Source: Chloroflexota bacterium (GTDB lineage: Bacteria > Chloroflexota > UBA11872 > VXOZ01). Taken from it: a stretch of DNA of 36,059 nucleotides. Positions 13,992 through 26,840 of this stretch are shown here, in pieces. The stretch is from assembly GCA_028874195.1 (NCBI GenBank), contig JAPPLM010000038.1, positions 1-36,059 of the forward strand, given 5' to 3'. Under the pieces are notes generated by a model that was not told the origin of the DNA, ran no database searches, and saw only the letters and a list, made by a program, of their open reading frames with translations. Made by a program: the position numbers and the translations under genes. Numbering within the stretch: the stretch's first letter is position 1; each line of letters starts with the position of its first letter.

Positions 13992-14711
13992 GTGCAGCCC
14001 CTTGAAAAGACCCACAACCTCCGCCACACGTATGCCGACGGCATGCAGGTTCACCTGGCCGGGTGCGACCTTGCCATCTGGCCTAAGGACCGCGTAGCAG
14101 TGGTCGGTGCAAATGGCGCGGGCAAGAGCACCCTCTTCCTGCTGCTCGGCATGCTGCGTCCCAGCGACGGGGCAGTTCAGGTGCTGGGGCACGATCCTGC
14201 CGCGGACTTCCCCAAGATTCGCCAAAGCATCGGCGTCGTCCTGCAGAACGTGGAGTACCAGATTCTCGCCCCGACCGTCTGGTAAGACATTTCTTTCTCA
14301 CCTCGAAACTACGGCCTGCCGGCGGAGGAAGTCGCGCGTCTCACGGACGCCGTGATGGAGACGCTCCGCATTGCCCATCTGGCGGACAAGGTCCCGCATT
14401 ACCTGTCTGCCGGTTAAAAGCGCCGCGTGGCGCTGGCAGGCGCGTTGGTAATGCAACCGGAGTTACTGGTGCTGGACGGACAGCGCGGCATCGTGTGCCG
14501 CTACTGCGTGGAAGACCGCTTCGAGCAGGACGAGATGCTGCGCGAGGCCAATGTCGCACCGCCGATCCTCAGCGAGCTCTTTGGCGAGTTGCGCCAGCGC
14601 GGCGTTAACGCCAAGACGCCGGTCACGGTCTCCCAAGCTGCCAAAAACCTCTTGGCGTTGATTCGCGACGGCAACGGGCGCTCAGAGGACACATCCACCC
14701 CTAGGTCGTAG
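13992..14711 (+). pseudogene. Broken CbiO/EcfA-like ABC transporter ATPase
   Basis: Translation in a single frame gives most of a cobalt/energy-coupling-factor ABC ATPase. It has Walker A GANGAGKST, Q-loop VVLQNVEYQILAPTVW, and a signature region reading YLSAG-stop-KRRVALAGAL. Two in-frame TAA codons interrupt it: one at 14283-14285 where VW[E]D is expected, and one at 14416-14418 where SGG[Q]KRR is expected. After LLVLD the Walker B glutamate, D-loop and H-loop region is missing. The frame instead continues into a CbiO-like C-terminal tail (DEMLREANVAPPILSELFGEL), so an internal deletion is likely. Three independent lesions indicate a dead gene. The frame begins with GTG at 13992 and has no clear ribosome site. 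No permease partner remains beside it. Confidence 0.85.
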
Positions 14712-18148: not shown

Positions 18149-19138
18149 CTAGCTACTACTCAACTTCTCTAAGGTAGCAGGTATCTCAATTAGAACGGAT
18201 TTGTCTGATTCAACTTCATCGGCGCGCTGGTTGTAGGTCTCTAGGAGCGCGCGAAACCCCTTATGCAACTTACCGTGCGAATACATCGACAGTTCATCGA
18301 TATTCTGAGCCACAAAGGCTTCTAAAGCGGACACTGTAATCTGAGAATATTGAATTGGAAGCTGGTCTTCAGCATATCCCCTTGCTGCTTCAACTCTCTC
18401 TTCAGGAACTACGACATACACGCGTAGGCCTTGTCGAATATTCTCCTTCACTCTCTCGAATAGATTGTCTCTCGACGGTGCCACAGTTACGTGGAATGCA
18501 GTGTCCTTGATCTGAAAGTCACCAGCCCGCCCGGTCTGTTCGTCAGCGGCGCTAGAGGGATTGTTTTCCACCTCGAAGTCAGGAAAGCGCAATTGCAGTT
18601 TCGCTCCAACAAGATGCTGCGCCACCGCCCCTGACTTTCCTGCCTCCTTTGCTTTTGCCAGAATCTCGTGAATGGCATGCCATGTGCTGCTCGCTAGATC
18701 ATAGGAAGGGGCCAACCGTTGACGGTTAAAGTATTCAACAACACGCTCTACGAGATATCCTTGTAAAGCCTCTAGGACACAGCCCCTCTCCGATTTGGAA
18801 ATCTTCTCTAGAGCTAATGGGCTCAGTCTCTTCAAGAGACTTGCCACTGCTCCACGCGCGCCTCTATTGGTTCTTCCTCCTTCGCGTAAGAAGTGTCTTT
18901 CCTCACCGAATCGCGTTAGGATTTCTGCAACTCTTCCTGGCGTTAGTCCCCGAACCTGAGCTCCCCTTCTTGCAGTGTGGGCGTCAATGTCCAGGTCATA
19001 ATCGCCTCTTAGGTGTTCGAGCACAACCAGTGCGGCGGCGATGCTCCCACGTGCTTTACTTCCCTTGAAATCAGGCAGCGCATCAAACCATGATTGGATA
19101 GTGATGAGGGCTGCTTCTTTGGTGCTCTTAGGAGTCAT
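18149..19138 (-). CDS. DUF4928-like protein, probable restriction component
   Basis: A 329-residue protein that resembles DUF4928, a family I associate with C5-methyltransferase restriction loci. The N-terminal ~120 residues are helical, with RGAQVRGLTPGRVAEILTRFGEE suggesting a DNA-binding helix-turn-helix. The C-terminal half contains FPDFEVENNPSSAADEQTGRAGDFQIKDTAFHVTVAPS, a strand-rich area with acidic residues and a lysine that could be a PD-(D/E)xK-like nuclease core, followed by a Rossmann-like GLRVYVVVPEERVEAA. The start overlaps the end of the methyltransferase gene by 11 bases, so the two are co-translated. By context it is likely the restriction endonuclease; this is inference and the family is formally uncharacterised. 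Confidence 0.72.
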   Translation of the reverse strand: MTPKSTKEAALITIQSWFDALPDFKGSKARGSIAAALVVLEHLRGDYDLDIDAHTARRGAQVRGLTPGRVAEILTRFGEERHFLREGGRTNRGARGAVASLLKRLSPLALEKISKSERGCVLEALQGYLVERVVEYFNRQRLAPSYDLASSTWHAIHEILAKAKEAGKSGAVAQHLVGAKLQLRFPDFEVENNPSSAADEQTGRAGDFQIKDTAFHVTVAPSRDNLFERVKENIRQGLRVYVVVPEERVEAARGYAEDQLPIQYSQITVSALEAFVAQNIDELSMYSHGKLHKGFRALLETYNQRADEVESDKSVLIEIPATLEKLSSS

Positions 19139-20720
19139 GGCTCGAGGAAAGCCGCAAGGGAAGGCCGCGAATTCGTTCGTTCACCACCGGATTGAGGTAG
19201 TGTTCTGCAATCCAATCAATTACTGAAACACACACCGCATCACCAAAGGCATGAAGCGCCTGGTTGAGTGGCACCGTTATGTTAAAGTTATCCGCTCCCA
19301 TGAGACGAGCACACTCCCTTGGTGTCAAGAGTCGCACGAAGTATTGTCCAAAACCAGCCTTGAAGAGGATTTGCCGGCCGCTCCCACCGAGTGTTGTCCG
19401 CAAACAGCCAGCGATTCCATCAGTGCGCAATTCAGCCATAGATCGGCCATTACGCACGCGGCGAAATGCCGTTCCATAAGACCAAGAGTCGCAAGAAATC
19501 ATCCCCTCTGCTTTGAGGCGATGGCGGTCACTCATTTGGTTGAGAAAGTAAACTGCCCTCTCTTCGCTCCACCACTCTGGCGCGTCGTGTGGTAAGTCCT
19601 CCAAGACCGCCTCAAGATATTGCATGCGTTGGGGCAGCGGCGGCAGTGGACGAAGACACCAAAAGATTTCAGGATGCTCTGCAATAAATGAGAGTAGCCG
19701 TTTTGGCCTCGCAGTAGCGAGTGCTCCCTCTTCGAAGACATTGTATGCTTGCCTCTGGTCATTCTCCAACAATTGACAAACCACAAAAAGCCGTGCGCGA
19801 CTCTGGGGCACAAAGTTGGCAGCGTCTACTATAAACGGGTCAACAGCGTAGCCTAGCCCATTGAGGGCCGAAAGCGCATGTCTAAAATCCTCGCCTTGCC
19901 GTGAAGTCAGGAAGCCAGGCACATTCTCGATGAGAACCAAAGGAGGTCTGCGCTCCCCCATTTCTCGTAGGACACGAATAAATCCCCAAAATGCTGAGGA
20001 TTTTTTGCCGCTAAGCCCTTTCCGCGCACCTGCAAGAGACAAGTCATTGCATGGAAATGACGCAGTAGCGAGTGTTACCGTCGGTAGATTCCTAACAACA
20101 ACCTCGTGAATGTCGCCCACCTGCAAACTCTCGGCGTTTGTCCCAAAGTGGGCTTCATACATTTCCGCCTTCTGGGGGTCTATGTCATTGGCGTACTTAA
20201 CCGACCAACCTTGACGCTCGAGACCCATACGTATAAGCCCTATGCCCGCAAAAAACTCAGCGACGGTTCGTTGTGGCAGTAGCGCCAAATTCGATGGGAC
20301 AACCCCGTTCTTGAACACGTCAACGGTTGTCTGAATAGAGTGATCTAAGTCATCCTTGACCTCACTCTCCCATAGCCGCAGAACGGTCCAGCCTTCCTTC
20401 AACAATGAGGCTGTGGCTCTTGCGTCTCGATCCATGTTGCGCCGAATCTTGCTCATCCAATAGCCTCTAGTGGGGGTATTGCGAAACTGCTCATGTAATC
20501 CCGTTAGATTGCGTTTGCGCCACTGTCCGCCATGCCAAAAGTCACCGTCAATGAAGATTGCAATTCGCTTCTTTAGCAACGCCATGTCTGGTTTGCCAGG
20601 CAAGTCCTGAACATGGATGCGATACCTTATTCCTTTTTTCCAGATTGCTCTTCTAATGACCAATTCAGGCGTCGTGTCTTGCGATTTCACACGCCGCATG
20701 ATCGCAGACGTGTCACGCAT
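19128..20720 (-). CDS. Vsr-like nuclease fused to DNA C5-cytosine methyltransferase
   Basis: A 530-residue fusion. Residues 1-135 are a Vsr-type (T:G mismatch nicking) endonuclease: MRRVKSQDTTPELVIRRAI, PGKPD with the catalytic Asp (D45) and FIDGDFWHGG (H63). The usual second-shell His and the zinc Cys of Vsr (HGCFWH) are replaced by Asp at 58 and 60. Residues about 150-520 are a C5 methyltransferase with motif I EFFAGIG, motif IV SFPCND (catalytic C224), motif VI ENVPG, motif VIII QSRAR and motif X GDAVCVSVIDW. It would methylate a cytosine and repair deaminated 5-methylcytosine or assist restriction. I chose the ATG at 20720, with GGAAG upstream; the frame is open from a GTG at 20750. It is first in a two-gene unit with the DUF4928-like gene. 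Confidence 0.92.
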   Translation of the reverse strand: MRDTSAIMRRVKSQDTTPELVIRRAIWKKGIRYRIHVQDLPGKPDMALLKKRIAIFIDGDFWHGGQWRKRNLTGLHEQFRNTPTRGYWMSKIRRNMDRDARATASLLKEGWTVLRLWESEVKDDLDHSIQTTVDVFKNGVVPSNLALLPQRTVAEFFAGIGLIRMGLERQGWSVKYANDIDPQKAEMYEAHFGTNAESLQVGDIHEVVVRNLPTVTLATASFPCNDLSLAGARKGLSGKKSSAFWGFIRVLREMGERRPPLVLIENVPGFLTSRQGEDFRHALSALNGLGYAVDPFIVDAANFVPQSRARLFVVCQLLENDQRQAYNVFEEGALATARPKRLLSFIAEHPEIFWCLRPLPPLPQRMQYLEAVLEDLPHDAPEWWSEERAVYFLNQMSDRHRLKAEGMISCDSWSYGTAFRRVRNGRSMAELRTDGIAGCLRTTLGGSGRQILFKAGFGQYFVRLLTPRECARLMGADNFNITVPLNQALHAFGDAVCVSVIDWIAEHYLNPVVNERIRGLPLRLSSSHDS

Positions 20721-20926
20721 TTGGCTTCCATTCGTTGAACCACAATTCACGGTAGTCGCATATGTACGAAAATCCGTTCGTTGCTACTCCATAATAGACC
20801 AAAAGCTAGTCGTACCGCGCGTGCAACGGTAAGGCAACCAATGCGCTGGACGGTGGCGGTCGATACCATAGGCCTGCACCGGCATGTGAAAGACCGGTTA
20901 GGGCGTTCCGCACACAGCAGTCGCAC

Positions 20927-26203: not shown

Positions 26204-26267
26204 AGGTTTCTTGGAGCTAAGCATTTGTAGGATGGAGTGTCACGCATTGTTCAGGAGGAACGAAACG

Positions 26268-26840
26268 ATGAGAAGACGAAACGTGTTGTCCGGGCTGGCC
26301 TGTGGTGCCGCGGCCATCGGACTGAGCGCGTGCGGCCAGTCGTTGGTCGGGCAGCAGAGCACCGGCGTCGCGTCTGTTGACGTCAGTGAACTACCCGTGC
26401 TTGGCAAAGCGCCGGAGCTCATTGACACGACGTGGATCAACTCGGAGCCGCTAACGCTCGCGGGTTTCAAGGGAAAGTCGGCCGTTGGACTCGCCTTCTG
26501 GACCTACGGCTGAATTAATTGCCTGAACGACATCCCCGGTCTGGTGGATATACATAATTCGTACGCCGACGATCGCTTCACGCTAATCAGCATTCATACG
26601 CCGGAGTTCAGCCACGAAAAGGTCGTCGACAACGTGCGCAAGGCGGTGGAACGGCTCGGCTTGCCCTATCCCGTTGCCATCGACAACGACTTCAAGATTT
26701 GGCGGTCGTTCGGCAACCGCGCCTGGCCGACCCTCTATCTTATCGACCGCCAAGGTGACGTGCGCTTAGCCAAGGTCGGCGAAGGCCGCTTCGGCGTGGT
26801 GCGCGGCGCGATCGAGTACCTCAAGGAGAATGAGGCCTAG
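26268..26840 (+). CDS. TlpA/DipZ-like thioredoxin lipoprotein, candidate selenoprotein (UGA at codon 82)
   Basis: A 190-residue thiol-redox lipoprotein if the UGA at 26511-26513 is read as selenocysteine. The ATG at 26268 has AGGAGG 9 bases upstream. A Tat-like signal (MRRRNVLSG) ends in lipobox LSAC, lipidated C22. The thioredoxin-like domain runs from ELPVLGKAPELIDTTWINSE to the end: LAFWTYG-U82-INC85-LNDIPG, HTPEFSHEKVVDNV, YPVAIDNDFKIWRSFGNRAWPTLYLIDRQGDV and GEGRFGVVRGAIEYL. This is the WTYxCINC pattern of DipZ-like proteins. The UGA replaces exactly the first, attacking Cys, and the resolving Cys is kept. No other lesion exists. The protein may reduce disulfides or peroxides outside the cytoplasm. 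The alternative is a single nonsense mutation or base error. Downstream of leuS but separated by ~300 bases. Confidence 0.7.
26511..26560 (+). promoter_or_regulatory. Candidate bacterial SECIS hairpin
   Basis: After the UGA the RNA can fold with a lower stem GAAUUA (26512-26517, sharing the GA of UGA) with UAAUUC (26555-26560). An upper stem forms AUCC-CC (26532-26537) with GG-U-GGAU (26543-26549), with one bulged U. The apical loop is GGUCU (26538-26542). In E. coli fdhF the SECIS loop also contains GGUCU and the stem has a bulged U, there on the 5' side. The loop begins 24 bases after the UGA, a workable distance for SelB. This is by-eye folding. Confidence 0.55.

Follow-up and report, generated by a model that had tools for sequence, protein, structure and literature searches.

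We found that a gene in the 36,059-nt stretch of Chloroflexota DNA analysed here (contig JAPPLM010000038.1, hereafter the window) encodes a predicted selenoprotein, an outward-facing, lipid-anchored thioredoxin of the TlpA/DipZ type with the putative active site Sec82-Ile-Asn-Cys85. We put the probability of this reading at roughly 0.93. It is supported in silico by a conserved frame with a conserved UGA, the selenocysteine (Sec) machinery of the genome, a constrained hairpin downstream of the UGA, the fold, and a ccdA gene beside the paralogues.

The frame comprises 190 aa and is interrupted once, by a TGA at codon 82 (Table 1); its translation reads MRRRNVLSGLACGAAAIGLSAC...LAFWTYG*INCLNDIPGLVD...YLKENEA*. 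In the active-site context FWTYG*INC, the TGA falls exactly on the attacking cysteine of WTYxCxxC. An earlier sequence-only reading had located the UGA at 26511-26513 on the first Cys of the redox motif, and its coordinates, frame and motif were exact; it had also recognized that the attacking and not the resolving Cys is replaced, and Cys85 is indeed invariant. The intact, conserved frame that it described, with a ribosome site (AGGAGG), a signal and a lipobox (LSA/C), was borne out as well, and purifying selection after the TGA is strong. The lipobox occupies residues 19-22 and is common to the orthologues, and the paralogues have LAA/C. A lipobox of this type predicts that the protein is anchored on the outer face of the membrane.

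Table 1. Features of the putative selenoprotein gene, in window coordinates
Feature	Position	Strand	Basis or remark
Shine-Dalgarno AGGAGG	26253..26258	+	9 nt 5' of ATG, read from sequence
Sec-TlpA/DipZ-type lipoprotein gene (predicted), 190 aa with UGA as Sec	26268..26840	+	TAG stop at 26838-26840
Signal peptide, arginine-rich start MRRRN, lipobox LSA/C	26268..26330	+	sequence; lipobox kept in orthologues
Cys22, predicted lipidation site	26331..26333	+	from lipobox
TlpA/DipZ-like thioredoxin domain	26388..26837	+	AlphaFold model; best PDB match DipZ C-terminal domain
UGA codon 82, predicted selenocysteine at attacking position of UxxC	26511..26513	+	alignment with homologues
Cys85, resolving cysteine of UxxC	26520..26522	+	invariant in alignment
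Predicted bSECIS hairpin AUCCCC-GGUCU-GG-U-GGAU	26532..26549	+	loop 26538-26542, 24 nt after UGA
Pro154, conserved cis-Pro position facing active site in thioredoxin folds	26727..26729	+	invariant in alignment; cis geometry from family

Two other regions of the window should be mentioned. At 13992-14711, the coding sequence of an ABC-transporter ATPase seems to lie in pieces across frames and is possibly a frameshifted or decayed gene. At 18149-20750, a minus-strand ORF (19128-20750) resembles, by eye, a Vsr-type endonuclease fused to a cytosine methyltransferase, and the ORF 18149-19138 that overlaps it may be its restriction partner, likewise by eye.

The orthologue keeps TGA at codon 82 in all six genomes of the genus, namely the window genome and five other species, and is located after leuS in every species of the genus examined. 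Each of the five more complete genus genomes, the window's own included, has two paralogues with TGA at the same codon, in the motif FWTYT-U-PVC. More distant relatives from many phyla have a Cys codon (TGC or TGT) at this site in 76 of 76 cases. The in-frame UGA is therefore aligned with the conserved redox Cys of the homologues, in agreement with the Cys/UGA alternation foreseen for residue 82, and no random stops occur elsewhere in the homologues. Judged by sequence comparison, the TGA pattern at codon 82 is far beyond chance. Identity to the window protein is 91-99% after the UGA and 69-95% before it, and between species the part after the UGA is 90-99% identical. Among the genus orthologues, dN/dS is 0.01-0.10 after the UGA and well below 1 on both sides. 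These low values, together with the higher identity after the UGA, indicate that the downstream half is a translated protein sequence and is under stronger constraint than the upstream half.

Standard gene calling splits the gene into two separate ORFs, one of them started by GTG (26544-26840), and two other readings could start from this split. First, the TGA might have replaced a Cys codon by nonsense mutation or through faulty assembly. However, six species whose genomes were assembled separately all show this TGA, so that a sequencing error is excluded, and it recurs in two sets of paralogues; the frame has no other stops and is under purifying selection on both sides. A pseudogene or error is thus extremely improbable, the conservation having already refuted it. 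Second, two functional proteins might be made, a short N-terminal lipopeptide ending at the UGA and a C-terminal protein starting independently at GTG 26544. The latter would lack the conserved INCLNDIPGLV helix, although this helix is intact and under constraint; moreover, the two halves together make up a single thioredoxin domain, with invariant residues before and after the UGA. We give next to no weight to this reading. A single protein read through the UGA is preferred.

In the window genome (3.5 Mb in 81 contigs, completeness 98.3%) we found the complete gene set that marks a bacterial selenoprotein producer, selA, selB, selC and selD. SelA was found at 571 bits, SelB at 377 bits with C-terminal SelB winged-helix domains, and SelD at 381 bits with its own in-frame TGA; tRNA-Sec was found by the covariance model at 67.1 bits, over the cut-off, and also by ARAGORN, with anticodon TCA. 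The search for sel genes proposed in the sequence-only reading has thus ruled out their absence, and its other proposals that lend themselves to in-silico analysis also gave positive results. In the class, selA is present in 39 of 41 genomes. One of the two genomes without it (G033) has only the Cys form, and the other (G039), which is 77% complete, has a TGA-containing NHL-type relative; we attribute the missing selA in the latter to genome incompleteness. The selD gene is itself a selenoprotein gene in the genus (L112, G000:C63:53216-54145; L110, L111, L113 and L114), with the motif CAG-U-AGKLGP and a hairpin 33 nt after its UGA.

Elsewhere UGA is an ordinary stop, terminating 5 of the 24 main window genes and also the ccdA gene, and this use rules out a genome-wide reassignment of the stop. 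It is very unlikely that codon 82 is decoded by non-Sec means, whether by reassignment across the genome (to Trp or Gly), by unspecific readthrough or by insertion of Cys, since UGA terminates these genes, the position concerned is in every case that of the redox Cys, and the genome has a full Sec system including tRNA-Sec. In other selenoproteins, Cys is known to be mis-inserted at Sec codons under selenium scarcity, and this might occur at codon 82 as well. Insertion of Sec is the reading that we retain.

A candidate bSECIS hairpin lies at nucleotides 22-39 counted from the U of the UGA, AUCC-CC-GGUCU-GG-U-GGAU, with one bulged U. The published bSECIS model has a loop of 3-9 nt, a stem of 4-16 bp, a G in the first two loop positions, a spacing of 16-37 nt and an energy of at most -7.5 kcal/mol. 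The hairpin agrees with the geometry, having a 5-nt loop GGUCU with its G, a 6-bp stem and a spacing of 24 nt, but its energy is weaker than the cut-off, -4.9 kcal/mol alone and -5.7 kcal/mol in context. Part of the known bSECIS elements fail the model according to its source, so we do not take the energy as excluding membership. The hairpins of some relatives reach -7.7 to -9.2 kcal/mol.

Comparison across species showed constraint on the hairpin. Among 186 six-codon windows in the six orthologues, the hairpin is the only one without a nucleotide change, and synonymous changes were found in 84 of the 135 amino-acid-invariant degenerate codons of the gene. All hairpin pairs are kept in 15 sequences (90/90 cells paired, versus 33-54% when slid). 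The paralogues retain every pair with the loop AGUU(U/G), and one paralogue has a compensatory change from A-U to G-C; this is the only pair with covariation, confined to one sequence, and 24 of 500 shuffles performed equally well. When the 66 nt around the UGA were folded singly, the result was no better than shuffles, and the signal came from the cross-species comparison. Hairpins with an early loop G, at spacings of 21-33 nt, also follow the UGA in selD, in a WASWUxC protein (L016), in NHL-type proteins and in L180; among the other UGA genes of the window genome and the class, the loop has G followed by G or U. The GGUCU loop is identical to that of the E. coli fdhF element.

Against Pfam, the read-through protein matched AhpC-TSA, Thioredoxin_8 and Redoxin above their cut-offs, passing that of PF13905, and against NCBIfam it matched ResA below the cut-off. 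DipZ of Mycobacterium tuberculosis, SOQ1 and NHLRC2 were the closest solved structures in a profile search (PDB 2hyx, 5cyy, 7djj and 6gc1). The AlphaFold model has pLDDT above 90 over most of residues 41-180, and its best structural match was DipZ (39% identity, rmsd 2.1), followed by NHLRC2, SOQ1, ResA and pneumococcal Etrx2. Residue 82 immediately precedes the helix 83-99, so that UxxC is located at the helix start of a thioredoxin fold with Pro154 opposite. Within the TlpA-like thioredoxins, the domain, closest to these proteins by sequence and fold, is a member of the DipZ/SOQ1/NHLRC2 branch. The thioredoxin-like domains of DipZ, SOQ1 and NHLRC2 are parts of larger proteins and have Cys at the active site; in DipZ, an N-terminal CcdA-like membrane domain and a C-terminal carbohydrate-binding-like domain are fused. 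In contrast, the window protein is a stand-alone lipoprotein of 190 aa with predicted Sec and is not a full-length DipZ.

Relatives with an in-frame TGA were also found outside the genus. NHL-repeat TlpA-like proteins with TGA at the attacking-Cys site occur in the same class (L150-L152 and L154-L158) and in other Chloroflexota (L181-L184), and were not seen in the window's genome. Their open frame spans about 490-640 aa, the motif is mostly WTFC-U-INC, and a conserved hairpin (loop AGUU) follows roughly 25 nt after the TGA. Another Chloroflexota family outside the class encodes a TlpA lipoprotein (L180:927, G116) in which MWTFG-U-INC is accompanied by a perfect 8-bp hairpin; its gene directly precedes one that resembles MsrP/YedY by eye.

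In a tree of 121 domains, the 16 Sec lipoproteins group together with support 100/99, apart from a second clade that holds eight Sec NHL-repeat proteins. A single change of state was found in 0% of the bootstrap trees, and therefore Sec and Cys have been exchanged at least twice. The tree places the triplication in the genus after one gain. A long branch is common to the Sec lipoprotein clade and the two nearest Cys rows, and this join is possibly false, although the Sec lipoprotein and NHL clades stay separate regardless of it.

Thiol-disulfide isomerase-like selenoproteins with UxxC were first found in the Sargasso Sea in 2005 (PMC1088965), and the family appears as PF13905 in PMC9312934 and as cd02966 in PMC13188914. 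As predicted for the window protein, they have a UxxC whose attacking residue is Sec and a bacterial SECIS, and their thioredoxin domain is likewise TlpA-like. The definition of this older family is wide enough to take in the window protein, which we therefore place within this known kind. The comparison with the Sargasso Sea family was by descriptions, so that members of the DipZ/WTYxUINC type may be among it; Chloroflexota are not mentioned for the family in the papers examined. Therefore, the proposal of a new selenoprotein holds for the subfamily and the lineage and not for the kind, which is already in the literature. The ResA-like WAxxUGC selenoprotein (NF041054) is a curated TlpA/ResA-like selenoprotein, but its motif is UGC (UxC) whereas that of the window protein is UxxC. 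The window protein did not match this model at an E-value of 0.001, its paralogues scored 25-34 bits against a cut-off of 300, and none of the NCBIfam selenoprotein models covers it. A TlpA/ResA-like protein with TPR, an in-frame TGA in MWASW-U-RC and a hairpin after the TGA (L016:1642, G000:C25) scored 151 bits against the same cut-off and is probably a divergent WAxxUGC-type selenoprotein with Arg replacing Gly. In the titles, abstracts and term counts of the literature on NHL-repeat, Chloroflexota/sponge and CcdA-linked selenoproteins, no description of the present proteins was found, which is not proof of absence, and a 2026 selenoprotein inventory gave no entry under NHL, DipZ or Chloroflexota. 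Thus, the subfamily, its lineage and its gene neighbourhood were not found described in the literature examined.

The following mechanism is plausible. SelA and SelD would make Sec-tRNA-Sec, and SelB would bind the hairpin and deliver the charged tRNA at the UGA, with the ribosome continuing to the TAG. The protein would be exported and then lipidated at Cys22. The Sec82 selenolate would attack substrate disulfides, or sulfenic/sulfoxide intermediates, and Cys85 would resolve the selenenylsulfide. Re-reduction of the oxidised protein would probably fall to a membrane thiol carrier of the CcdA type that cytosolic thioredoxin supplies, so that electrons would flow from cytosolic thioredoxin through CcdA and Sec-TlpA to oxidised extracytoplasmic proteins.

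In the window genome, the two Sec paralogues adjoin a DsbD_TM/CcdA gene about 8 kb from selB (contig C5), and selB is 8-11 kb from the paralogue pair in three other species. This arrangement suggests a CcdA-fed extracytoplasmic relay. One further CcdA-type gene is present in the genome. Because no ccdA lies beside the window copy, we infer its electron donor from the paralogues; the direction of the reaction, its substrate and its partners are proposed in the same conditional sense. The Etrx proteins of pneumococcus are Cys-based. Etrx1 and Etrx2 are lipid-anchored extracytoplasmic thioredoxin-fold proteins paired with CcdA (PMC3914529), resembling the window protein in fold and predicted anchoring and, beside the paralogues, in the CcdA pairing. 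By analogy with this CcdA-Etrx pathway, the role of a CcdA-fed reductase is somewhat favoured. The selenoprotein may instead act as an oxidase/isomerase or a peroxidase-like enzyme. Sec can serve peroxidatic chemistry, and the window copy has no adjoining ccdA; however, its UxxC still contains the resolving Cys, which together with the DipZ/ResA/Etrx fold is in line with reductases, and the paralogues adjoin ccdA. We therefore consider such an activity unlikely, though worth keeping in mind beside the CcdA-fed reductase.

In conclusion, the window protein and its paralogues may constitute an unlisted subfamily of DipZ-type Sec lipoproteins that serves as a dedicated selenium-based electron relay outside the membrane, its genes being present in triplicate in a single Chloroflexota genus and associated with selB and ccdA. 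Sec would have entered the DipZ/NHLRC2 branch on at least two occasions, of which the second concerned NHL-repeat proteins (CUxxC) throughout the class; we hold this wider picture to be an even bet. Standard annotation would cut the gene at residue 81 throughout the genus, hiding three proteins per genome. With the predicted protein, the selenoproteome of this poorly known lineage would gain a branch that is extracytoplasmic and lipid-anchored. The Cys relatives of the protein allow Cys and Sec to be compared in naturally occurring proteins, within a fold for which structures have been solved (DipZ, NHLRC2 and SOQ1). With Sec having entered the same fold branch at least twice, the benefit of selenium in extracytoplasmic thiol relays would become testable.
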